NCBI GenBank assembly: GCA_015099395.1
Contig: AP024096.1
Location: 5,394,001-5,458,000, forward strand
Reading direction: 5' to 3'
DNA length: 64,000 nt
DNA from: Ktedonobacteria bacterium brp13
Lineage (GTDB): Bacteria; Chloroflexota; Ktedonobacteria; Ktedonobacterales; Ktedonobacteraceae
Shown here: positions 17,696-29,050 of the stretch, in pieces
Position numbering within the stretch: the stretch's first letter is position 1
Layout: every line of letters starts with the position of its first letter
Translations under genes and position numbers: made by a program
The notes under the pieces: generated by a model
The model's database searches: none
What the model saw: the letters and a program-made list of their open reading frames with translations, nothing else
Told to the model about the DNA's origin: nothing

Positions 17696-18235
17696 TTATT
17701 CAGCGGTAGCTCCGCTATTTAATTGTTCTGCACGGGCCTGGAAAATGTAAACCAGATCGCGTAATGGCGCGGAAAGTAAGCCATACGTCTGCGCGAGTGG
17801 TCCCTGAACGGTCCCCACGAGCTCGGCTTTAGACTGGTCTTTCCCACCTTTAATTTTGCTGATGTTCTCAACTTGTTCTGCGCTCAATGAGCGGCCACCA
17901 AGGATGGCGGACTTGAGAACAACAACTTTGGAAGTATTGACGTAATCAGCGACAGCTTTTGCAGCCGCGACCTCGTCATCATAACTAAAAGCGACAGCAG
18001 TCTGACCATTGAAGATTGCTTTGTCCACGTTAGCCATGTTATTACGCTCAGATGCTATACGCAGCAGCGTGTTCTTGGCAACATGAAACTCGATCTTAGC
18101 AGTACGCATTTTCTGGCGCAGATCATTCATGTCCTTAACGGACAGACCCTGAGTCTGCACAAGAATGGCAATGGTAGCACGGCCAAGCTTCTCTGTTAAC
18201 TCGTCGATTTTTTTGGCTTTTGCCTCTGTTGGCAT
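17696..18235 (-). CDS. rplJ: 50S ribosomal protein L10
   Basis: 179 residues. L10 anchors L7/L12 dimers on the 50S stalk. The N-terminal rRNA-binding domain is recognisable ([25 protein letters not shown], then [11 protein letters not shown]), as is the C-terminal helix that binds L7/L12 ([19 protein letters not shown]). It starts at ATG 18235 after AGGAGGAGAG. In most bacteria rplA lies directly upstream; here about 8.2 kb of foreign-looking DNA separates them, so rplJL must have its own promoter. Confidence 0.97.
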
Positions 18236-18430: not shown

Positions 18431-18680
18431 CACCATGGTCTAATAGTCATCTCCTCGGCAAGTTGCCCCATTGGGATGAGACACTTAGATGCCTGCTGGC
18501 ATGCTTGCTATCTTCGGTGATATATAAGATATCGCCTTTTTATTGGGCAGATCGCGTGCGCTTCCAATGATACAGTATCAAAGGAGGCAAACGATTCAGG
18601 AGTTTTCTATTTCTCAAAGAGGTTGCTTTTTACAACTTGTCTATCTTAACACAGGTTCAGCCATTTGTAAATAGCTGCAA

Positions 18681-18770
18681 CAGATAAGACAATAGTCCTT
18701 TGTTCAAGACAATGCAGCCTGATTACGCTCGCTATTTGTCCTACGTATGCTCATCAGGAAGTCTATTTTA
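18681..18770. repeat. Spacer module of the secreted-protein array, copy 1
   Basis: A sequence beginning AGATAAGACAATAGTCC and ending ATCAGGAAGTCTATTT. Versions recur before the genes at 20969, 22800 and 24459. This copy is shortest. It lies between the rplJ leader and the first array promoter, so it may be the ancestral flank. Confidence 0.75.
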
Positions 18771-18850
18771 AATGCAAATATGCATAAAAAAATATGCATT
18801 TCATTTATTTCACTTTCTACTATATATAAATATACTTATTAGCGGTTATT

Positions 18851-18886
18851 TATAATAATGTTACCGAGACGAAATAAATATTGCGT
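18851..18886 (+). promoter_or_regulatory. Array promoter 1: TATAAT plus palindrome
   Basis: TATAAT at 18851-18856 sits in a strongly AT-rich stretch. The near-palindrome ACGAAATAAATATTGCGT follows at 18869-18886, with one mismatch compared with the perfect versions upstream of the later genes. No good -35 box is seen. The 5' UTR would be about 130 nt and contains a second inverted repeat (GTAAACCAGTT and AACTGATTTAC). Confidence 0.55.
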
Positions 18887-18993
18887 ACGGAACGTTAGCA
18901 GTAAACCAGTTTTTTTATCGTAAGAAAATCAACTGATTTACGCATAAAGTGAAATAAAATGCATAGCACAAATTTAGTTACGAAAGGTACAAA

Positions 18994-19488
18994 ATGATAA
19001 TGAAAAAGACCATGAAACCATTGCTGGGCGCAGTGGGTGTGACTGTTCTGAGTTTTGGAGCAATGTTAGGAATCACCGCGCCAGCTTTCGCTGCTACCGA
19101 TGCTCCAGTAGCTCCGGTTGCCTCTGTAACAACTGCGAGCCCTGCTGAGGTTACACCTCTCTATGATCCTCATGATATTGATCAAGATATTACGAACACT
19201 CCCTCTTTTAGAGTTTCCGTTACCTCTGGTAATGTTACCAGTGGTGGTGGTGGTGGTGGTGGTGGTGGTGGTGGTGCTAATATTACTGGTAGTTGCAGTA
19301 GTGCAGGTACTATAACTCAAACAGCTAGTGGTACATCTAGTACAGCTAATGCAACTTTTACAAGTTCTACCTCTTGTGTCGCTGGTGGTGGTAACGGTGG
19401 TGCCGGTGGTAGCAGTGGTGCCGCTAACGGTGGTGATACAAGCATCAACTTCACGAGCGATATAAAAAACAGCAATAAGATTAAATGA
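18994..19488 (+). CDS. Array gene A: secreted Gly-rich protein
   Basis: 164 residues. The signal peptide MKPLLGAVGVTVLSFGAMLG ends at APAFA, shared with four paralogues downstream. The mature protein has an Ala/Pro/Val segment, the motif PLYDPHDIDQDITNTPSF, a run of 11 glycines, a region with two Cys (GSCSSAG and SSTSCVAGG), then GGNGGAGGSSGAANGG and the family ending DIKNSNKIK. It is translated from ACGAAAGGTACAAAATG. It lacks the acidic C-terminal tail of paralogues C and E; its stop leads straight into the leader of gene B, 36 bases away, with no terminator between them. Confidence 0.85.
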   Translation: MIMKKTMKPLLGAVGVTVLSFGAMLGITAPAFAATDAPVAPVASVTTASPAEVTPLYDPHDIDQDITNTPSFRVSVTSGNVTSGGGGGGGGGGGANITGSCSSAGTITQTASGTSSTANATFTSSTSCVAGGGNGGAGGSSGAANGGDTSINFTSDIKNSNKIK

Positions 19489-19524: not shown

Positions 19525-20019
19525 ATGATGATGAAGAAGATAATGAAACCATTGCTGAGCGCAGTGGGTGTGACTGCTCTGAGTTTTGGGGCCATGTTAG
19601 GAATCACCGCACCAGCTTTCGCTGCTACCGATGCTCCAGTAGCTCCGGTTGCCGCTATAACAACAGCGAGCCCTGCTGAGTTTACACCTCTCTATGATCC
19701 CCATGATATTGATCAAGATATTACGAACACTCCCTCTTTTAGCGTTTCCGTTACCTCTGGTAATGTTACCAGTGGTACTGGTGGTAGTGGTGGTAGTGGT
19801 GGTAGTGGTGGTATTACTAATAGTTGCAGTAGTGCAGGTACTATAACTCAAACAGCTAGTGGTGCAGGCAGTGCAGCTGCTGCAGTTTTTACAATTTCTA
19901 CATCTTGTGCCGCTGCTGGTGGTAACGGTGGTGCCGGTGGTTCCAGTGGTCCCGCTACCGGCGGTAATACAAGCATCAACTTCGCGAGTGATATAAAAAA
20001 CAGCAATAAGATTCAATGA
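19525..20019 (+). CDS. Array gene B: secreted Gly-rich protein, tail cut by TGA
   Basis: 164 residues and the closest relative of gene A: the same signal peptide, PLYDPHDIDQDITNTPSF, the two-Cys region and the ending DIKNSNKIQ. The poly-Gly stretch of A is replaced by GGSGGSGGSGG. After KIQ the frame meets TGA, but the next 25 codons still match the acidic tail of paralogues C and E (HSYDDSS then SDTDAN). Gene B therefore looks truncated by a recent stop, unless the stop is read through. It is probably co-transcribed with gene A, since only the short 36-base leader precedes it. Confidence 0.85.
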   Translation: MMMKKIMKPLLSAVGVTALSFGAMLGITAPAFAATDAPVAPVAAITTASPAEFTPLYDPHDIDQDITNTPSFSVSVTSGNVTSGTGGSGGSGGSGGITNSCSSAGTITQTASGAGSAAAAVFTISTSCAAAGGNGGAGGSSGPATGGNTSINFASDIKNSNKIQ

Positions 20020-20097
20020 CCTAAGCATCATAGTTACGATGATAGCAGTGCTAGCAGCGATACCGATGCTAACAGCGATGACACCGATGACTTCTAG
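20020..20097 (+). pseudogene. Untranslated remnant of the gene B tail
   Basis: In frame with gene B after its TGA, 25 sense codons run to TAG at 20095-20097 and encode HHSYDDSSASSDTDAN-like acidic sequence ending in DDTDDF. Paralogue C has CTA at the position of the TGA, so two bases differ. It is still well conserved, so either the stop is recent or readthrough gives a longer product. Confidence 0.6.
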
Positions 20098-20108
20098 TCG
20101 GTAATCGT

Positions 20109-20151
20109 AAAGGCTCATGCTTACGCCACCCTGGCATAAGCATGAGCCTTT
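20109..20151 (+). terminator. Array terminator 1
   Basis: AAAGGCTCATGCTTA pairs with TAAGCATGAGCCTTT around a short loop. Nearly the same hairpin ends genes C, D and E. It follows the TAG of the gene B tail, not the TGA, which suggests the longer frame was the original gene. Confidence 0.85.
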
Positions 20152-20164
20152 GAAGACCATTGAA

Positions 20165-20197
20165 GAGAGCGCGCCACCGTTATGGTAGCGCGCTCTC
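20165..20197. terminator. GC-rich hairpin duplicated with the array
   Basis: GAGAGCGCGC and GCGCGCTCTC face each other around ACCGTTATGGT. A copy also follows gene C, and a weaker one gene D. After gene E an IS-like element occupies its place. On the minus strand it would lie just after the rplA stop, so it was probably the terminator of the rplK-rplA unit. Confidence 0.65.
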
Positions 20198-20211
20198 GCT
20201 GGTGTATCGTG

Positions 20212-20321
20212 TATTCTTAGCTCAGAGGCTGCAAAGCAGTCGCGGTAACCACGGCATCTCCCCTTATGCTATCCAGGTGACGAAGCTACTTACCACCGAT
20301 AATAAGAACAACGAGTCGGTG
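20212..20321 (-). pseudogene. Fused remnants of rplA, nusG and secE
   Basis: Bases 20212-20245 match the 3' end of rplA, including its stop (native 26475-26502). From 20243 to 20321 the sequence matches the nusG start, the nusG-secE gap and the secE 3' end (native 28389-28470), for example CCAGGTGACGAAGCTACTTA. The join lies at a shared CGG. Everything between the two parts, about 1.9 kb in the native locus, is missing. This is a duplicated block that later lost its middle. Confidence 0.85.
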
Positions 20322-20410
20322 AAGAACTTTCTCCCATGATCCTGCCATGGCTTTTGCCCTTTTGTTTCGTTACTGGTCTCCCCAGCAATAATTTTCAGAC
20401 CCTGCTCCCC

Positions 20411-20570
20411 CAGCAAAAGATAAGACAATAGTCCTTTGTTCAAGACAATGAAGTCCCAATTACGCTCGCTAATTGTCCCGCGTATGCTCATCAGGAAGTC
20501 TATTTGGCCGAGTCTCGTGTCGCCTGGTTGGTCTCTCTCCTCTCGCCTACCCATAGGTATAAAGAATTAG
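20411..20570. repeat. Spacer module of the array, copy 2
   Basis: Starts CAGCAAAAGATAAGACAATAG and continues through ATCAGGAAGTCTATTTGG to TAAAGAATTAGCTATTCAC. It is longer than copy 1 and close to the copies at 22247 and 23818. It has no coding capacity that I trust. Confidence 0.75.
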
Positions 20571-20827
20571 CTATTCACTACGTACGGGTCTATGTTGTTC
20601 CGTGCGCAAAACTGCGTTGGCAATTCTTCGCGAGCGCAGTGCTTCGCTCTTATTTTTAGCCATACAACCGTTTTCCTTGTGTTTTCTGAGGAGCGCTCTC
20701 TCTTGCGGTTAAGCATGCATACATATCCCAACGTATTCTTTTCTATTTTTAAAAGCAAATACGCATAAAATAGTATTTCATTTATTTTACTTCATACTAT
20801 GTGTACATATACTTATTGGCGGCTATT

Positions 20828-20864
20828 TATAATAATTTTACCAAGACGAAATATTTATTTCGTC
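20828..20864 (+). promoter_or_regulatory. Array promoter 2: TATAAT plus perfect palindrome
   Basis: TATAAT at 20828-20833 is followed 12 bases later by the perfect 20-base palindrome GACGAAATATTTATTTCGTC (20845-20864). The central bases differ from those in promoters 3 and 4, but the dyad is kept, which suggests selection for the symmetry. Confidence 0.6.
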
Positions 20865-20968
20865 TGGAACGTTAGCAGTAAACCAGTTATTTATAGCAAA
20901 AAATTAACTGATTTACGCATAAAATTGAATGAAATGCATAGCACAAATTTAGTTACGAAAGGTACAAA

Positions 20969-22054
20969 ATGATGACGAAGAAGATAATGAAACCATTGCT
21001 GGGTGCAGTGGGTGTGACTGCTCTGAGTTGTGGGGCCATATTAGGAATCACCGCGCCAGCTTTCGCTGATGCTGGCACTCCGGTATTTACGGTATTTCCG
21101 GTATATATGGTAGATTTTGTAAAAACAGCCAGACCTGCTGTTTCCGGTGCTCCGGTTGCTATAGTAGCCTTTGCAACAACAGCCAGACCTGCTGTTTCCG
21201 ATGCTCCGGTTGCTCCGGTTGCCTTTGTAACAACAGCCAGACCTGCTGTTTCCGGTGCTCCGGTTGCCGCTGTAACAACAGCCAGACCTGCTGTTTCCGG
21301 TGCTCCGGTTGCCCCGGTTGCCGCTGTAACAACAGCCAGACCTGCTGTTTCCGGTGCTCCGGTTGCCCCGGTTGCCGCTGTGACAACAGCCAGACCTGCT
21401 GTTTCCGGTGCTCCGGTTGCCCCGGTTGCCGCTGTAACAACAGCCAGACCTGCTGTTTCCGGTGCTCCGGTTGCTCCGGTTGCCGCTGTAACAACAGCCA
21501 GACCTGCTGTTTCCGGTGCTCCGGTTGCTCCGGTTGCCGCTGTAACAACAGCCAGACCTGCTGTTTCCGGTGCTCCGGTTGCTCCAGTTGCCGCTGTAAC
21601 AACAGCCAGACCTGCTGTTTCCGGTGCTCCGGCTGCTCCGGTTGCCGCTGTGACAACAGCGAGCCCTGCTGTTGTTACACCTCTCCATGATCGTGATTTT
21701 GATATTACTAGCAAGGCAAAGAACAATCTCTCTTCTACCGCTTCCGCTACCGCTGGTGCCGCTGCCAGTGGTACTGGTGGTAATGGTGGTAATGGTGGTA
21801 CTGGTGGTAATGGTGGTAATAGTGGTGTCGCTTGTGCCGCCAATAGCAGTATGATCCTTTGTATCGCTATTCCCGGTGGTAACGGCGGTAACGCTAACGG
21901 TGGTGCTGGTGGTGCCAGTGGTGCCGCTAGAGGTGGTGATGCGACAAACACCATCAAGACTGATGCAAAAAACAGCAATAAGATTCAACTACCTGAGTAT
22001 CATAGTTACGAAGATAGCAGCGATACCGATGCTAACAACGATGACAACTGGTAA
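20969..22054 (+). CDS. Array gene C: secreted protein with 18-residue repeats
   Basis: 361 residues. Shared signal peptide (MKPLLGAVGVTALSCGAILG) ending APAFA. Residues ~54-230 are ten tandem copies of an 18-residue unit, TARPAVSGAPVAPVAAVT; one copy is three residues short and the first ones are diverged. A Gly-rich part follows (GTGGNGGNGGTGGNGGNSG) with two Cys, then the family segment GGDATNTIKTDAKNSNKIQ and the intact acidic tail YHSYEDSSDTDANNDDNW. No membrane anchor or sorting signal is seen. The repeat looks able to form an extended Pro-rich rod. A role in the cell surface or spore coat is inference only. Confidence 0.85.
   Translation: MMTKKIMKPLLGAVGVTALSCGAILGITAPAFADAGTPVFTVFPVYMVDFVKTARPAVSGAPVAIVAFATTARPAVSDAPVAPVAFVTTARPAVSGAPVAAVTTARPAVSGAPVAPVAAVTTARPAVSGAPVAPVAAVTTARPAVSGAPVAPVAAVTTARPAVSGAPVAPVAAVTTARPAVSGAPVAPVAAVTTARPAVSGAPVAPVAAVTTARPAVSGAPAAPVAAVTTASPAVVTPLHDRDFDITSKAKNNLSSTASATAGAAASGTGGNGGNGGTGGNGGNSGVACAANSSMILCIAIPGGNGGNANGGAGGASGAARGGDATNTIKTDAKNSNKIQLPEYHSYEDSSDTDANNDDNW
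21127..21660 (+). repeat. 54-bp tandem repeat inside gene C
   Basis: Ten units of 54 bp (one of 45 bp) encode TARPAVSGAPVAPVAAVT. The central units differ by only one or two bases (GCCCCGG or GCTCCGG, GTAAC or GTGAC), so the array is young or being homogenised. Length variation between strains is likely. Confidence 0.9.
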
Positions 22055-22058
22055 TCGT

Positions 22059-22101
22059 AAAGGCTCATGCTTACGCCAAGGTGGTGTAAGCATGAGCCTT
22101 T
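22059..22101 (+). terminator. Array terminator 2
   Basis: AAAGGCTCATGCTTAC pairs with GTAAGCATGAGCCTTT immediately after the gene C stop. A GCGCGCC..GGTAGCGCGC hairpin follows at 22118-22143, a copy of the one at 20165. Confidence 0.85.
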
Positions 22102-22160
22102 GAAGACTATTGAAGAGGGCGCGCCACCGTTATGGTAGCGCGCTTCGCTGGTGTATCGTG

Positions 22161-22192
22161 TATTCTTAGCTCAGAGGCTGCAAAGCAGTCGC
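22161..22192 (-). pseudogene. Remnant of the rplA 3' end
   Basis: The stretch from ATTCTTAGCTCAGAGGCTGC to CAGTCGCAGCCGA matches the last ~10 codons and the stop of rplA (native 26478-26508). The following 55 bp up to the spacer module match nothing I recognise. It is the shortest of the three ribosomal remnants. Confidence 0.7.
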
Positions 22193-22246
22193 AGCCGACT
22201 GGCCCCATATTCATCAGGTGGCTCAAGTGACTCGTGTTGTTACCAG

Positions 22247-22405
22247 CAAGAGAAGACAATAGCCCTTTGTTCAAGACAATGAAGCCCCAATTACGCTCGC
22301 TAATTGTCCTACGTATGATCATCAGGAAGTCTATTTGGACGGGTCTCGTGTAGCCTGATTGGTCTCTCTCCTCTCTCCTACCCATAGGTATAAAGGATTA
22401 GCTAT
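22247..22405. repeat. Spacer module of the array, copy 3
   Basis: Starts AGAGAAGACAATAGCCC, includes ATCAGGAAGTCTATTTGG and ends near the TAAAGGATTAGCTATTCAC block. It is about 90% alike with copy 2 by eye. Confidence 0.75.
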
Positions 22406-22658
22406 TCACTACGTACGGGTCTCTGTTGTTCCGTACGCAAAACGTCGTTGGTAATTCTTCGCGAGCGCATTGCTTCGCTCTTATTTTTAGCCATACAACC
22501 GTTTTCCTTTTGTTTTCTGAGGAGCTCTCTCTCTTGCTGTTCAGCGTGTATGCATGTCCCAACGTATTCTTGTCTATTTTTAAATGCAAATATGCATAAA
22601 ATAATATTTCATTTATTTTACTTCCGACCATGTGTAAATATACTTATTGGCAGTTATT

Positions 22659-22693
22659 TATAATGATTTTACGAGACGAAATAAATATTTCGT
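22659..22693 (+). promoter_or_regulatory. Array promoter 3: TATAAT plus palindrome
   Basis: TATAAT at 22659-22664 and the perfect palindrome ACGAAATAAATATTTCGT at 22676-22693. The 5' UTR also keeps the GTAAACCAGTT / AACTGATTTAC pair and ends in ACGAAAGGTACAAAATG. Confidence 0.6.
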
Positions 22694-22799
22694 ACGGAAA
22701 TTTAGTAGTAAACCAGTTATTTTATAGCAAGAAAATTAACTGATTTACGTATAAAGTGAACGAAGTGCATAGCACAAATTTGGTTACGAAAGGTACAAA

Positions 22800-23450
22800 A
22801 TGATGATGAAGAAAACAATGAAACCATTGCTGGGTGCAGTGGGTGCGACTGCTCTGAGTTTTGGGGCAATATTAGGAATCACCGTGCCAGCTTTCGCTGA
22901 TGCCGTTGCTCCGGTAGTCTCTGTATACGGACCAACCCACGTTTGCGGTACAGGAACGGCACCCGTCCTCCTCGCGACGTTAGCACCTGGTCAAGCATTG
23001 CAGGGATATGTAGTGACCTCGGGGGTTCCGGGTGCCTATGCCCTCATTATGGATAACGCTGGTTTCTCAGAAGGGTTCTCTGATGCTACTTCTGACTCTA
23101 ATCCATTCACAATTCCAGAGAATACCTCTACCACAAATGTTGTTGTATCTGCTTGTGTTTCTCACGTGGGTACAGTAGGTGCCGTTACTCTTCAGATTTT
23201 GGATGCGACAGAGAGCCCTGTGGATGGAAGACCTCTCTATCATGAGCATGAGCCTAATATTACTATCAATGTAACTCCCCATGCTACCGCTACCGTTGGT
23301 AATGTTACCGCTAACGCTACCGGTAACGGTGGTGACGTTAGCAATAGCGGTAATGCGACAAGCACCAACACGAATAATCTAAAAAATATCAACAAGCTTC
23401 GACTATCGTCTCGTAGTAAGTCCTATCATAGTTACAAGGGTAACAACTAG
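22800..23450 (+). CDS. Array gene D: secreted protein with an extra globular part
   Basis: 216 residues. Same signal peptide ending VPAFA. Unlike its paralogues, residues ~40-145 look like a folded beta-rich domain with two Cys (THVCGTG and VSACVSH), which may form a disulphide after export. The end returns to family style: HEHEPNITINVTPHATATVGNV, GNGGDVSNSGNATSTN, then LKNINKLR and a YHSYKGNN tail shorter than in C and E. The start has the shared ACGAAAGG site. No known domain is recognised. It shows that the array exchanges the middle of the protein while keeping both ends. Confidence 0.85.
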   Translation: MMMKKTMKPLLGAVGATALSFGAILGITVPAFADAVAPVVSVYGPTHVCGTGTAPVLLATLAPGQALQGYVVTSGVPGAYALIMDNAGFSEGFSDATSDSNPFTIPENTSTTNVVVSACVSHVGTVGAVTLQILDATESPVDGRPLYHEHEPNITINVTPHATATVGNVTANATGNGGDVSNSGNATSTNTNNLKNINKLRLSSRSKSYHSYKGNN

Positions 23451-23461
23451 TCGGTAATCGT

Positions 23462-23502
23462 AAAGACTCATGCTTACGCTACACTGGCGTAAGCATGAGC
23501 CA
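23462..23502 (+). terminator. Array terminator 3
   Basis: AAAGACTCATGCTTACGC faces GCGTAAGCATGAGCCATT. It is the same hairpin as after genes B, C and E but with two mismatches at the base. Confidence 0.75.
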
Positions 23503-23568
23503 TTGAAGACCATTGAAGAGAGCACGCCGCCGTTATGGGAGCGCGCTCTCTTTGATGTGTATTGTATT

Positions 23569-23805
23569 ATTAGCGCAGAGACTTCAAAGTAGTCGCGGCC
23601 GAAACATCCAGATGGATGCGCCAAGGGACATCGTGCTTGTCAATGTAATACTCTTAATATCAGATCATCAAGACCAACAAAGTCTGCGCCTGCGCTCTCG
23701 GCCTTCACGGTGGGCAGCAGCTTTGCTACTTGACTTAGCAGGTTCGCGGCACTCGTCACGGGCCATAGCTTTCACTGCCTCATCGGTTGTCTGAACACTG
23801 TCCAT
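23569..23805 (-). pseudogene. Composite remnant of rplA and secE
   Basis: Bases ~23569-23657 match the rplA 3' end (native 26481-26570, for example GCGGCCGAAACATCCAGATG). About 23661-23705 matches an internal rplA part (native ~26889-26935, ATCATCAAGACCAAC). From ~23708 to 23805 it matches the N-terminal half of secE (native 28665-28765, CTTGACTTAGCAGGTTCGCGG). Internal parts of rplA and all of rplK and nusG are missing. Several frame-breaking differences show it is dead. Confidence 0.85.
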
Positions 23806-23817
23806 TGCCCTGCTCCC

Positions 23818-23985
23818 CTAGCAAAAGATAAGACCATAGTCCTTTGTTCGTGACAATGCAGCCCCAATTACGCTCGCTAGTTGTCCTACGTATGCTCATC
23901 AGGAAGTCTATTTGGCCTGGTCTCGTGTAATCTGGTTGGTCTCTCTCCTCTATTCTACCCATAGTTATAAAGAATTGGCTATTCA
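23818..23985. repeat. Spacer module of the array, copy 4
   Basis: Starts TAGCAAAAGATAAGACCATAG, includes ATCAGGAAGTCTATTTGG and ends TAAAGAATTGGCTATTCAC. About 120 bp of unrelated sequence (23990-24115) follows before similarity to the other units resumes. Confidence 0.75.
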
Positions 23986-24313
23986 CTACTTACTTTAGTG
24001 CTTAGTCTAAATTCTTATGAAGCCAGATAGGAAGGGGCTTGAGCACTATTCTTATGGAAATGGTCTCGGCCTGCTCCACAAGCCACTTCACACGAAATTA
24101 GTCTAAACATCAAACTTACTGGTCTATGTTGTTCCTTACGTAAAACTTCGTTTGTAATTCTTCGCTCGAGCATTGCTTCGCTCTTATTTTTAGCAATACA
24201 ACAGTTTTCCTTTTATTTTCTGAAGAGCTCTCTCTATTGCGATTCAGCGTGTATACATGTTCCAAAGTATTCTTTTCTATTTTTAAATGCCAATATACTT
24301 GTTAGCGGTTATT

Positions 24314-24349
24314 TATAATGATTTTACCGAGACGAAATAAATATTTCGT
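24314..24349 (+). promoter_or_regulatory. Array promoter 4: TATAAT plus palindrome
   Basis: TATAAT at 24314-24319 and the perfect palindrome ACGAAATAAATATTTCGT at 24332-24349, the same as promoter 3. Confidence 0.6.
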
Positions 24350-24458
24350 ACGGAACATTAGCAGTAAACCAGTTATTTTATAGCAAGAAAACTAACTGAT
24401 TTACGCATAAAGTGAAAGAAGTGCATAGCACAAATTTAGTTACGAAAGGTACAAAATA

Positions 24459-25853
24459 ATGGCGAAGAAAACAAGGAAACCATTGCTGAACGCAGTGGGT
24501 GTGACCGCTCTGAGTTTTGGGGCGATGTTAGGAATGGCCGCGCCAGCTTTCGCTGATGCCGTTGCTCCAGTTGCTCCTACAGATGCTGTAACAACAGCGA
24601 GCCCTGCTGATGCCGCTGCTCCTACAGATGCTGTAACAACAGCGATCCCTGCTGATGCCGCTGCTCCTACAGATGCTGTAACAACAGCGAGCCCTGCTGA
24701 TGCCGCTGCTCCGGCAGACGCTGTAACAACAGCGAGCCCTATGGATAGTGGATCTCCCTGGGATGAGCCTAAGCATGAGCCTAAGCATGAGCCTAAGCAT
24801 GAGATCACTTTCAAGGTAAAGTCGAAGAACGACAACGATAATAAGCTTAAGAGCGACATCGATAATAAGCTTAAGAGCGACATCGATAATAAGGTTAAGT
24901 CGAAAAACGACAACGATCTTAAGTCGAAAAACGACAACGATAATAAGGTTAAGTCGAAAAACGACAACGATAATAAGGTTAAGTCGAAAAACGACAACGA
25001 TCTTAAGTCGAAAAACGACAACGATCTTAAGTCGAAAAACGACAACGATAATAAGCTTAAGAGCGACATCGATAATAAGGTTAAGTCGAAAAACGACAAC
25101 GATAATAAGGCGAAGAGCGATGCCGATGCTAGTAATAGCGTTACCGTTAGCGCTACCGGTGGTTCCGTTAGCAATAGCGGTAACTCGACGAACGACATCG
25201 ATAATAAGGTTGAGACCAAGAACGACAACGATCTTAAGACCAAGAACGACAACGATCTTAAGACCAAGAACGACAACGATCTTAAGGCCAAGAACGATGC
25301 CGATCTTAAGTCGAAGAACGACAACGATCTTAAGACCAAGAACGACAACGATAATAAGGCCAAGAACGATGCCGATCTTAAGTCGAAGAACGACAACGAT
25401 AATAAGGCCAAGAACGATGCCGATCTTAAGTCGAAGAACGACAACGATCTTAAGACCAAGAACGACAACGATCTTAAAAACACTGTCAAGGCTCAAAAAC
25501 ATAAGTATCATAGCTACGATGATAGCAATGCTAGCACCGACGCTGTAACAACAGCGAGCCCTGATTCTTCCGCTGCTCCAGCTGCTCCAGCTGCTCCGGC
25601 AGACGCTGTAACAACAGCAATGCCTGATTCTTCCGCTGCTCCAGCTGCTCCAGCTGCTCCGGCAGACGCTGTAACAACAGCGAGCCCTGCTGATGTCGCT
25701 GCCCCAGCTGCTCCGGCAGAAGCTGCAACAACAGCGATGCCTGCTGATTCCGCTGCCCCAGCTGCTCCAGCAGAAGCTGTAACAACAGCGATGCCTACTT
25801 CTTCCGCAGACGCTGTAACAACAGCGAGCCCTGCTGACACCGATGACTTCTAG
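24459..25853 (+). CDS. Array gene E: secreted Lys-Asn-Asp repeat protein
   Basis: 464 residues. Shared signal peptide (KPLLNAVGVTALSFGAMLGM) ending APAFA. After four Ala/Pro units of the DAVTTASPADAAAPT type and EPKHEPKHEPKHE, residues ~125-350 are built of 8- and 10-residue units such as SKNDNDLK and SKNDNDNKVK. They are interrupted once by the family motif SATGGSVSNSGNSTNDIDNK. The YHSYDDSNAS motif follows, then a second Ala/Pro repeat block ending in DTDDF. The charged repeat is almost free of hydrophobic residues, so it is probably disordered or metal-binding; no function is known. The start follows ACGAAAGGTACAAAATAATG. Confidence 0.85.
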   Translation: MAKKTRKPLLNAVGVTALSFGAMLGMAAPAFADAVAPVAPTDAVTTASPADAAAPTDAVTTAIPADAAAPTDAVTTASPADAAAPADAVTTASPMDSGSPWDEPKHEPKHEPKHEITFKVKSKNDNDNKLKSDIDNKLKSDIDNKVKSKNDNDLKSKNDNDNKVKSKNDNDNKVKSKNDNDLKSKNDNDLKSKNDNDNKLKSDIDNKVKSKNDNDNKAKSDADASNSVTVSATGGSVSNSGNSTNDIDNKVETKNDNDLKTKNDNDLKTKNDNDLKAKNDADLKSKNDNDLKTKNDNDNKAKNDADLKSKNDNDNKAKNDADLKSKNDNDLKTKNDNDLKNTVKAQKHKYHSYDDSNASTDAVTTASPDSSAAPAAPAAPADAVTTAMPDSSAAPAAPAAPADAVTTASPADVAAPAAPAEAATTAMPADSAAPAAPAEAVTTAMPTSSADAVTTASPADTDDF

Positions 25854-25922: not shown

Positions 25923-26459
25923 GACATGAAACACCTCAAATTTTAGGGGCAGAGCTTTATGGAGGGTAGAGCTCGCCAAAAAGAAGCCTCCTGCGATAGA
26001 GTACAAGCAGACGAGAAACACATGCTTCAGTCTATCGAGGAGGTTTTCTTATGTCTTCACAATATCCCATCCCCTACGAACATGTGCAAGCCCCACCTTA
26101 TCAGGATATGGAGGTCGCACAAGGAGCGGGAAGAGCCTTAGCAGTGTACCGTACGCTCCAGTAAAGAGTATCGCCTCACCCCGATCCACAAAGGGTTTTA
26201 CACGCCTCGGCGACATACCACCTTTGGTCCCCGGCTTGCATGGCTCGGGCTCTTACTGGTTGGGTCTATGGCGACTTCAGGACCGCCCCTGCTAGCAGCG
26301 ACCCAGTGGTGAGGACGAGGAGAGCGTATTTCTCTGCTGCTGCTTTCAAACATGCGAAAGGACAAAAAAGGAAGCATGCTTATCCCTGTCTTTGCAGGTT
26401 GTGCATGCTTCCTTCTCGTCCATTATTACCCCAACTTTAAAATCGGGGTGTTTCATGTC
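25923..26459. mobile_element. IS-like or MITE-like element, 537 bp
   Basis: The ends are inverted: GACATGAAACACC (25923-25935) and GGTGTTTCATGTC (26447-26459), with weaker pairing further in (ATTTTA with TAAAAT). In the other array units this place holds the GC-rich hairpin GAGAGCGCGC..GCGCGCTCTC; here the element lies exactly between its outer GAGA and TCTC. Inside are a short ORF with a strong ribosome site and a hairpin GGAAGCATGC..GCATGCTTCC (26371-26412). No transposase is present, so it would need one supplied in trans. Confidence 0.65.
26051..26164 (+). CDS. Short ORF inside the IS-like element, 37 residues
   Basis: MSSQYPIPYEHVQAPPYQDM and 17 further residues end at TAA 26164. It has a good ribosome site (GAGGAGG, 8 bases upstream), and a hairpin CGATAGA..TCTATCG lies just before that site. 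No relatives are recognised. The tidy translation start argues for real expression, the small size against. Confidence 0.4.
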   Translation: MSSQYPIPYEHVQAPPYQDMEVAQGAGRALAVYRTLQ

Positions 26460-26480
26460 TCGCTGGTGTGTATCGTATTC

Positions 26481-27197
26481 TTAGCTCAGGGGCTTCAAAG
26501 CAGTCGCGGCCGAAACATCCAGATGGATGCTGGGGGACATCGTGCTTGTCAGCGTAATGCTCTTAATATAGGTGCCTTTCGCGCCCGAAGGACGGGCGGA
26601 AGTGACAGCATTGATAACAGACGTCACATTCTGCATCAAGAGATCCTCGCTGAACGAGATCTTGCCAGCAGGGATATGCAGCAGAGCAGTACGGTCGACT
26701 TTGAACTCGACACGACCGGCTTTGACGTCACGGATGGTCTTTGCCAGATCGAAGGTAATCGTACCGGCTTTTGGGCTGGGCATCAAGCCACGGGGGCCAA
26801 GCTTCTTACCGAGGCGGCCAACTTTACCCATAACATCAGGTGTGGCGATGGCGACATCAAAACCCAACCAGTCGCCCTCGATCTGTTTGATCAGATCATC
26901 AAGACCAACGAAGTCCGCGCCCGCGCTCTCGGCTTCAGAGACCTTTTCGCCTTGAGCGAAGACCAGGACCTTCACTTCTTTACCGGTACCAGCCGGCAGC
27001 ATTGCGACACCGCGAACCATCTGATCAGCGTGGCGTGGATCGACACCAAGCTTCATATGGATCTCCAGTGTTGAATCAAACTTTGTGAAGCTCATCTTTT
27101 TGAGGAGTGAAACAGCTTCTTGTGGAAGGTAGAGCTTATCTGCATCGACGAGTTTCGCCGCTTCCAGATACTTCTTACCGTGTGTTTTTGTTGCCAT
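26481..27197 (-). CDS. rplA: 50S ribosomal protein L1
   Basis: 238 residues from ATG 27197, with GGAGGGCAAC upstream. L1 forms the mobile stalk at the tRNA exit side and represses its own operon in many bacteria. Family signs: MATKTHGKKYLEAAKLVD, LGVDPRHADQMVRG, VAIATPDVMGKVGRLGKKLGPRG and MPSPKAGTIT. The C-terminus SAATALKPLS is the part found in decayed copies downstream. Normally rplJ follows; here the secreted-protein array does. Confidence 0.97.
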   Translation of the reverse strand: MATKTHGKKYLEAAKLVDADKLYLPQEAVSLLKKMSFTKFDSTLEIHMKLGVDPRHADQMVRGVAMLPAGTGKEVKVLVFAQGEKVSEAESAGADFVGLDDLIKQIEGDWLGFDVAIATPDVMGKVGRLGKKLGPRGLMPSPKAGTITFDLAKTIRDVKAGRVEFKVDRTALLHIPAGKISFSEDLLMQNVTSVINAVTSARPSGAKGTYIKSITLTSTMSPSIHLDVSAATALKPLS

Positions 27198-27247
27198 TCT
27201 ATGTTGCCCTCCTTGAGGCAATAACCGCAGTGACTTTCGGGCAGGGA

Positions 27248-27670
27248 TTACTCGATGGTGACACCCATGCTGCGCGCGGTACCTTCAATCGTACGCTCGG
27301 CGGCCTCAATGCTATTCACATTGAGATCTTTCAACTTCAGTTCCGCGATCTCGCGCAGTTTGGCGCGGCTGATCGAACCAACTTTTGTTTTATTCGGGGT
27401 AGCAGAACCAGACGGAACGCCCAGAGCTGACTTCAACAGGTCGGGCACCGGAGGTGTCTTTGTAATGAATGTGAATGAACGATCTTCAAAGATCGTAATT
27501 TCAGCAGGGATAACCATGCCAGCCTGATCGGCGGTGCGTGCATTGTATTCCTTACAGAACATCATCAAATTGATGCCGTGAGGACCAAGCGCAGTACCAA
27601 TCGGGGGTGCCGGTGTAGCTTTGCCCGCTGGAATCTGGAGCTTTACTACTGTTTTAATACGCTTTGCCAT
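27248..27670 (-). CDS. rplK: 50S ribosomal protein L11
   Basis: 140 residues, typical length. L11 binds the GTPase-associated region of 23S rRNA. The conserved N-terminus [29 protein letters not shown] and the C-terminal domain [31 protein letters not shown] are unmistakable. The start at ATG 27670 has GAGGAG upstream. The gap to rplA is 50 bases, in one operon with nusG and secE. Confidence 0.98.
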
Positions 27671-27829: not shown

Positions 27830-28399
27830 CTAGATCTTCTCCACCTGAAGGAAATCCAGGAGTACAGGGGTCTCACGACCAAAGAATGAGACGAGCACAG
27901 TCACTTTATTACGATCCATATTAATATCACTGACTGAGCCGATAAATCCGGTAAACGGGCCATCAATCACACGAACACTCTGTCCGACGCTGAAACTGAC
28001 CTTCGCCTTCGGTTTCTCAGTCTCATGTGTAACTTGCTTCAAGATAGTCCGGACCTCGTGCTCCTGTAAAGGAACGGGGCGCGTGCCGGAACCTACAAAG
28101 CTCGTGACACCAGGCGTGTTACGCACAACATACCAGGCTTCATCACTCATTATCATCTCGACCAGTACATAGCCAGGAAACACTTTGCGCTGTACTGTTC
28201 GACGCTGACCCTGCCGGATCTCCACCTCTTCCTCCATCGGAACAATGATGCGAAAGATCTTGTTTCGCATGTCCATCGAGGCGATACGGGCTTCGAGGTG
28301 ACTTTTCACCTTATTCTCATAACCCGAATACGTGTGGATCGCAAACCACTCGCGTTTCTCTTCGGATCGTTCTTTTTCACTGGTACGTTCGGTAACCAC
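27830..28399 (-). CDS. nusG: Transcription antitermination factor NusG
   Basis: 189 residues. NusG binds RNA polymerase and links it to Rho or the ribosome. The NGN domain is clear (EWFAIHTYSGYENKVKSHLEARI, KVFPGYVLVEMIMSDEAWYVVRNTPGVTSFVG), as is the C-terminal KOW motif (GQSVRVIDGPFTGFIGSV). A GTG start at 28399 follows AAGGGG. It lies 33 bases after secE, the universal pairing. Confidence 0.97.
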   Translation of the reverse strand: MVTERTSEKERSEEKREWFAIHTYSGYENKVKSHLEARIASMDMRNKIFRIIVPMEEEVEIRQGQRRTVQRKVFPGYVLVEMIMSDEAWYVVRNTPGVTSFVGSGTRPVPLQEHEVRTILKQVTHETEKPKAKVSFSVGQSVRVIDGPFTGFIGSVSDINMDRNKVTVLVSFFGRETPVLLDFLQVEKI

Positions 28400-28432
28400 G
28401 GCATTTCCCCTTATGATATCCAGGTGACGAAG

Positions 28433-28828
28433 CTACTTACCACCGATAATAAGAACAACGAGTCGATAAAGTCCAAAATCAACCAGGGATAAGATAGCGC
28501 CAAGGACGGCACAGAGTAAAACTACTGCGATAGTCATATTCCGAGCTTCCAAGAACGTAGGCCACGTCACTTTATAACGTAACTCATAATATGAGTCATA
28601 GATAAAGCGACCGACCTTCGTTTTGCGCACGCGCGCGAAAATTGATGGTTTGGTTTCACGGCGGGCGGCAACTTTGCTGCTTGACTTAGCAGGTTCGCGG
28701 CGCTCGTCACGGGCCGAAGCTTTCACTGCCTTATCGGTTGTCTGAACACTGTCCAGTGCTCTGACTTCGGTGGCCTGAGCCTGACTCCGGCTGACATTTT
28801 TCTTTCTGTCGGTCATGTTCTTTGCCAC
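28433..28828 (-). CDS. secE: Preprotein translocase subunit SecE
   Basis: 131 residues. SecE clamps SecY in the Sec channel. The conserved part is C-terminal: ELRYKVTWPTFLEARNMTIAVVLLCAVLGAILSLVDFGLYRLV, with one membrane segment. The first ~70 residues are a polar Lys/Arg/Ala extension, longer than in short SecE proteins. GTG at 28828 is preferred, with GAAAGG six bases upstream; an ATG at 28816 is possible. Fragments of both ends recur inside the array. Confidence 0.93.
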   Translation of the reverse strand: MAKNMTDRKKNVSRSQAQATEVRALDSVQTTDKAVKASARDERREPAKSSSKVAARRETKPSIFARVRKTKVGRFIYDSYYELRYKVTWPTFLEARNMTIAVVLLCAVLGAILSLVDFGLYRLVVLIIGGK

Positions 28829-29050
28829 GTTCAACCTTTCTGATCAGTAGCGATCGCACCTGACTCACTGCCTGTGGATTCTCAGCGACGCTACGGAAGA
28901 TGTTTTAATAGTTCCTTCTATTATACAGGAATATGTCAGGGGGGTCATTAGGAAATGAGACAGAAATCTATTCCACCCATTCTCCACTTTCCTCTATCCC
29001 TCTATATAGCTTATAGCGTTGCTGAATACGGGCAAACCAGGTTCTACTTC

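Follow-up and report, generated by a model that had tools for sequence, protein, structure and literature searches.

Remnants of rplA, nusG and secE between secreted-protein genes of a Ktedonobacteria genome and the probable history of the array that contains them

Why should pieces of essential ribosomal and secretion genes lie scattered between the members of an array of secreted-protein genes, and what do they say about how that array grew? The question is raised by a locus in Ktedonobacteria bacterium brp13, a soil bacterium whose genome consists of a single contig of 8.88 Mb. Its nearest relatives are Dictyobacter aurantiacus, D. kobayashii, D. vulcani and D. arantiisoli, which makes it a Dictyobacter-level member of the Ktedonobacteria. 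We analyzed a stretch of 64,000 nucleotides of this genome (contig AP024096.1, positions 5,394,001 to 5,458,000), hereafter called the window; unless given in Mb or otherwise marked, coordinates are positions in it.

Five secreted-protein genes between rplJ and rplA

The array sits inside the gap between rplJ (17696-18235) and rplA (26481-27221), both on the minus strand, and contains five plus-strand genes for secreted proteins. At its left edge, adjoining the region upstream of rplJ, the X/promoter block of unit 1 (18677-18993, plus strand), which has an internal deletion compared with the other units, leads into secreted gene 1 (18994-19488, plus strand), encoding a protein of 164 aa with a signal-peptide-like N terminus. 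Secreted gene 2 (19525-20019, plus strand, 164 aa) is a local tandem copy of gene 1. The two genes are 93% identical over 300 nt with no fossil spacer between them, and they arose later than the rest, by a small duplication that included no spacer. The terminator hairpins 3' of gene 2 (20098-20196, plus strand) are common to the gene-3 and gene-4 units. Three further plus-strand units follow: an X block (20405-20968) with gene 3 (20969-22054, 361 aa); an X block (22252-22799) that is 90.0% identical to that of the gene-3 unit, with gene 4 (22800-23450, 216 aa); and an X block (23813-24458) carrying a 120-bp insertion at 23994-24113, with the repeat-rich gene 5 (24459-25853, 464 aa). A later insertion with imperfect terminal inverted repeats (25923-26460) lies in the hairpin between gene 5 and native rplA, beyond which rplK (27248-27670), nusG (27830-28399) and secE (28433-28834) are all encoded on the minus strand.

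All five secreted-gene reading frames are open. Their products have in common a signal-peptide-like start, MMKKTMKPLLGAVGVTALSFGAMLGITAPAFA, and have very different, repeat-rich bodies. No Pfam or NCBIfam model (for gene 2, Pfam only) scored above its cut-off for the secreted genes, and searches of 47 genomes of the order, GTDB contigs and viral contigs gave no relatives of the family. Elsewhere in the genome, the family has only one further copy, a frameshifted paralog at 4.646 Mb. By these comparisons, the secreted genes appear to be an orphan, lineage-specific family, present only in this genome among those searched. Gene 5 gave weak NCBIfam matches, which we set aside as low-complexity and far below the cut-offs.

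Among relatives, the rplA-rplJ gap was measurable in 19, where it spans 221-1935 bp, and the array was absent from all 19. The gap tolerates insertions, since in D. arantiisoli an unrelated reading frame of 392 aa occupies it on the operon strand. A search of the gap for a curated leader RNA gave no Rfam match at E values up to 0.1.

Pieces of the neighboring genes in three spacers

A first-pass annotation made from the letters of the window had described remnants of rplA, nusG and secE in three of the spacers. We aligned the array with the native region at 26.46-29.3 kb by blastn and used 100 first-order shuffles of the array as the null. Six pieces of 49-109 bp were recovered in the three spacers, with identities of 86-95% to the native genes and scores of 62-152 bits, compared with a best score of 33.7 bits in the 100 shuffles. 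Chance similarity is excluded by the shuffles, and the alignment, which the annotation had itself proposed as a check, extends over far more than a few bases; the remnants it described are real.

In spacer 1, the 3' end of rplA (20197-20245, minus strand, 88% to 26461-26509) is joined to the start of nusG and the end of secE (20243-20324, minus strand, 95% to 28390-28471). Spacer 2 retains the 3' end of rplA (22146-22198, minus strand, 87% to 26461-26513), which has derived changes in common with spacer 1. Spacer 3 contains three minus-strand pieces: the 3' end of rplA (23553-23660, 86% to 26464-26569), which has a 2-bp insertion that shifts its frame, an inner part of rplA (23659-23707, 92% to 26890-26937) and the N-terminal coding part of secE (23704-23812, 91% to 28655-28763). 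The intervals first given for these remnants (20212-20321, 22161-22192 and 23569-23805) were correctly placed, but each edge fell 3-16 bases short. All six pieces are plus/plus and colinear with the native locus, so that native order and strand are kept in every spacer, as had been asserted. The rplA end is present in all three spacers, and the boundary between gene terminator and rplA is identical in all units. The genes rplK and rplJ and the rplJ upstream region left no piece in the spacers that blastn could detect, apart from the X blocks, which are shared with the left end of the array. No earlier account of the locus, or of fossils of this kind, turned up in the literature search.

To whom do the remnants belong? 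The four larger pieces were compared with the native genes, four Dictyobacter species and two other Ktedonobacteria. They are 88-95% identical to the native genes and, over the same sites, less similar to each Dictyobacter and other Ktedonobacteria genome compared, which rules out a foreign origin of the fossils relative to these six genomes. With the four Dictyobacter species as reference, 23 of the fossil-native differences could be placed on the fossil branch, compared with 2 on the native one, and 8 could not be assigned; the binomial estimate for 23:2 is about 2e-5, a value that partly reflects relaxed constraint on the fossils. Differences were distributed 12:4:14 over codon positions 1, 2 and 3, a weak bias of the kind left by constraint. 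The pieces are decaying copies of the genome's own genes, and one of them, the rplA fossil of spacer 3, is frameshifted. The annotation had also suggested dating by divergence. At four-fold sites, the native genes differ from those of other Dictyobacter at 51-53% of positions, and the duplications are therefore much younger than the Dictyobacter species splits.

These comparisons also bear on whether the extra units were acquired by horizontal transfer from a related strain that carried the gene beside its own rplA, in which case the divergence would be that between strains. The 5-14% difference between fossils and native genes would suit such a transfer, as would the abundance of ISAs1 elements in the clade. 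However, the native genes are the nearest to the fossils, the polarised changes and the frameshift lie toward the fossil side, and the secreted gene is absent from all other genomes searched. Moreover, the X blocks of the array are 87-90% identical to each other (about 10-13% difference among units) compared with 83-86% to the distant paralog at 4.646 Mb (14-17% difference). We therefore regard transfer as very improbable.

An ISAs1 remnant at the joint between units

Further examination of the spacers went beyond the first-pass annotation, with ISAs1 remnants in spacers 1 and 2 and a joint of IS terminus and promoter block in spacers 1 and 3. The remnant of spacer 1 (20321-20404, plus strand) covers the transposase C-terminal end (HDPAMAFALLF...) and the sequence up to and including the right terminal inverted repeat. 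Over 84 bp it matches an IS of D. arantiisoli with 88% identity, and its end coincides exactly with the IS terminus. It contains a perfect 22/22-bp terminal repeat at 20383-20404; with up to 3 mismatches allowed, the window has no second occurrence of this repeat. The remnant of spacer 2 (22200-22251, plus strand) is an internal piece of the transposase, 92% identical to the D. arantiisoli IS over 52 bp. Both pieces have the same orientation and lie between the ribosomal remnant and X, and tblastn agrees with this assignment. An ISAs1 relative at 4.65 Mb of the genome (L063 12062-13943) passes the family cut-off of NCBIfam NF033564 with 193 bits versus 70, and the relative in D. arantiisoli is bounded by perfect 22-bp terminal repeats, while its target shows a direct repeat of about 10 bp. 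Compared with the full element, only the 52- and 84-bp fragments are left in the array.

In spacer 3, the secE piece runs straight into CCCTG followed by CTCCCCTAGCAAAAGATAAG, which matches the IS terminus and the promoter-block start of spacer 1. The joint itself, CCCTG followed by CTCCCCYAGCAAAAGATAAG, is common to spacers 1 and 3, and the sequence after the secE fossil, CCCTG followed by CTCCCCTAGC, is as in spacer 1. Only about 5 bp of the possible IS terminus are retained at the spacer 3 joint. Because IS pieces or the IS terminus lie between the ribosomal remnant and the next X, the repeat unit reads as X, gene, terminator, rplA, rplK, nusG, secE' and IS, with secE'-IS-X as the apparent duplication joint. 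The identical terminator/rplA boundary in all units and the kinship of the fossils with this genome's own genes bear out the earlier proposal that the units spanned secE, rplA and the secreted gene. The reach to secE is a minimum, since the secE edge at 28763 adjoins a deletion joint, and the original unit may have extended beyond it.

The presence of an IS at the joint, together with the known ability of IS elements to stimulate tandem amplification (PMC11253626), suggests that the IS could have triggered the first duplication. We infer this role rather than observe it, because neither a second IS copy nor a target-site duplication remains: the sequences to the left of unit 1 and next to native secE contained no IS copy or remnant, although one may have been lost, and a target-site duplication of the joint IS was looked for and not found. 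Separately, we do not claim that a single IS insertion lies beside both the array X and the distant paralog; there is a difference of about 18 bp between the two joints, and their repeats are of different types.

The pieces are short and their joints show little homology, features expected if they were small fragments captured by template switching or as end-joining filler at breaks and had never been part of full duplicated genes. Capture does not predict, however, that the pieces should always keep native order and strand, nor that in three of three spacers they should directly follow the gene terminator, as in the native locus, and then give way to the same IS/X joint. Three independent repeats of the same arrangement would be required, and we consider this very improbable.

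Growth of the array and decay of the copied block

Tandem duplication, followed by decay of the co-amplified rplA-secE neighbors and of the joint IS, is very probably the best reading of the spacers. At the outset, rplJ and rplA would have flanked an orphan secreted gene and its promoter block, X. Head-to-tail duplication would then have copied the stretch that ran from X through the gene and its terminator, rplA, rplK and nusG into secE, most or all of which was included. The new joint (secE'-IS-X) would have held an ISAs1-family IS, and recombination at an IS copy, or between copies, is the presumed trigger. At least one further round would have multiplied the unit, probably by unequal crossing-over between units. 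Selection would have kept only the rightmost rplA-secE set, while the redundant sets and the joint IS drifted and were trimmed, differently in each spacer, by deletions mostly at short microhomologies. Meanwhile, the five secreted-gene frames would have been retained and would have diverged, and the array may have been maintained because a larger amount or a greater variety of secreted protein was favored. The secreted genes are likely the selected part because their five frames are open while the ribosomal blocks shrank. Some results count against tandem duplication: rplK lies inside the proposed unit and no rplK fossil survives in the spacers, and no intact duplicate or intermediate state was found among 47 genomes of the order, a set that does not include sister strains of the species.

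The order of events can be approached through shared differences. In the terminator and rplA tail, spacers 1 and 2 share 5 sites, and the other two groupings are supported by 1 site each. Among the promoter blocks, X2 and X3 share 11 sites and the other groupings 6 and 2. The two regions group alike, as expected if the joints were copied together. This pattern gives moderate support to an order in which joint J3 formed first and later copying gave rise to J1 and J2, at a time when most of the ribosomal block would have remained, because different parts of it were kept in spacers 1 and 2. Support for the branching order of the units is likewise moderate, and gene conversion between them could blur it.

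Of each copied ribosomal block, which measured at least 2.3 kb, about 53-260 bp are left. Deletion endpoints are different in each spacer, which agrees with the initial suggestion that the redundant copies were later deleted, each in its own way. At the deletion joints, alignments read by eye show short shared bases: CGG for spacer 1, and both AT and TTCA for spacer 3. Where the IS piece of spacer 2 meets X, the shared stretch is longer, CCAGCAA. That the remnants serve a present function, for instance by providing homology through which copy number is changed in a regulated way, or by acting as antisense or terminator elements, is extremely unlikely: the rplA tail and terminator region are kept in all units and the hairpins are conserved, but conservation is seen in the hairpins only, and the ribosomal pieces are short, spacer-specific and in one case frameshifted, with little codon-position bias.

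A close parallel to tandem duplication with later decay is the IS1-mediated amplification of the arn operon in E. coli B, in which an IS likewise lies at the joint, bystander genes are tandemly duplicated and copy number is raised by unequal exchange (PMC11253626). That case is recent and drug-selected, whereas the event in the array is old, its bystanders are essential ribosomal and secretion genes that now persist as remnants, and its joint IS is nearly gone. The process is already known, both as IS-associated amplification and as amplification followed by divergence, and the array is an unusually legible natural example rather than a new kind of system. The innovation-amplification-divergence model of new gene evolution, reportedly put forward by Bergthorsson, Andersson and Roth and by Nasvall et al., has the same order of events: amplification together with neighbors, then loss of the unneeded parts and divergence of the useful copies. 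The array differs in being a historical record rather than an experiment, and selection and an innovation step for the secreted gene can be inferred at most. On balance, we lean toward viewing it as a natural record of this model over several rounds, with co-duplication of an essential block at an IS joint, independent erasure of its copies and genes diverging in length and repeats.

Bacterial tandem amplifications are usually unstable, and their steps are normally visible only in laboratory evolution. At this locus, the joint and the bystander genes are preserved together with the deletion scars of three units, and the order of events, their relative age and the way in which copies were lost can be read from them. 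Duplication would have taken an essential ribosomal gene block along in at least two rounds, and the extra copies would then have been cleared, beside an orphan gene family.

C-terminal tails of genes 1 and 2

Genes 1 and 2 of the array look shortened at their C termini, because the sequence past the gene 2 stop codon (20020-20097) still codes for a tail resembling those of genes 3 and 5 (PKHHSYDDSS...DDF).

Insertion next to rplA and the corresponding gap of D. arantiisoli

Between gene 5 and rplA, a 538-bp insertion (25923-26460) takes the place of the hairpin stem. It is bounded by imperfect terminal inverted repeats, CATGAAACACC...GGTGTTTCATG, and partial copies are found at three sites elsewhere in the genome. 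In the sister species D. arantiisoli (locus L041), the rplA-rplJ gap is occupied by an unrelated 392-aa membrane-protein-like reading frame.

Insertion sequences around a distant copy of the secreted gene

Elsewhere in the same genome, the secreted gene occurs in a frameshifted copy that has IS sequences on both sides (L063 7575-13943, in G000:C1:4638000-4656000). One side is a 142-bp IS remnant that keeps both terminal repeats, and the other is a truncated ISAs1 element. The 10-bp GGATCAAGGG is present at each outer flank, an arrangement like that of a composite transposon. An ISAs1-family element of D. arantiisoli (L200 431-1722, on G001:C68) has perfect 22-bp terminal repeats, and its target shows a direct repeat (AATATACTACC) roughly 10 bp long; the transposase match of this element falls into two pieces, one of them with a TGA stop.

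Upstream regions of the array genes

The promoter block of the gene 5 unit contains a single-copy insertion of 120 bp (23994-24113). Four array units share a conserved inverted repeat, GTAAACCAGTT...AACTGATTTAC (18901-18941, 20878-20916, 22708-22748, and 24364-24404), with the start codon about 50-100 bases downstream. This repeat may be an operator or a leader hairpin common to these units.
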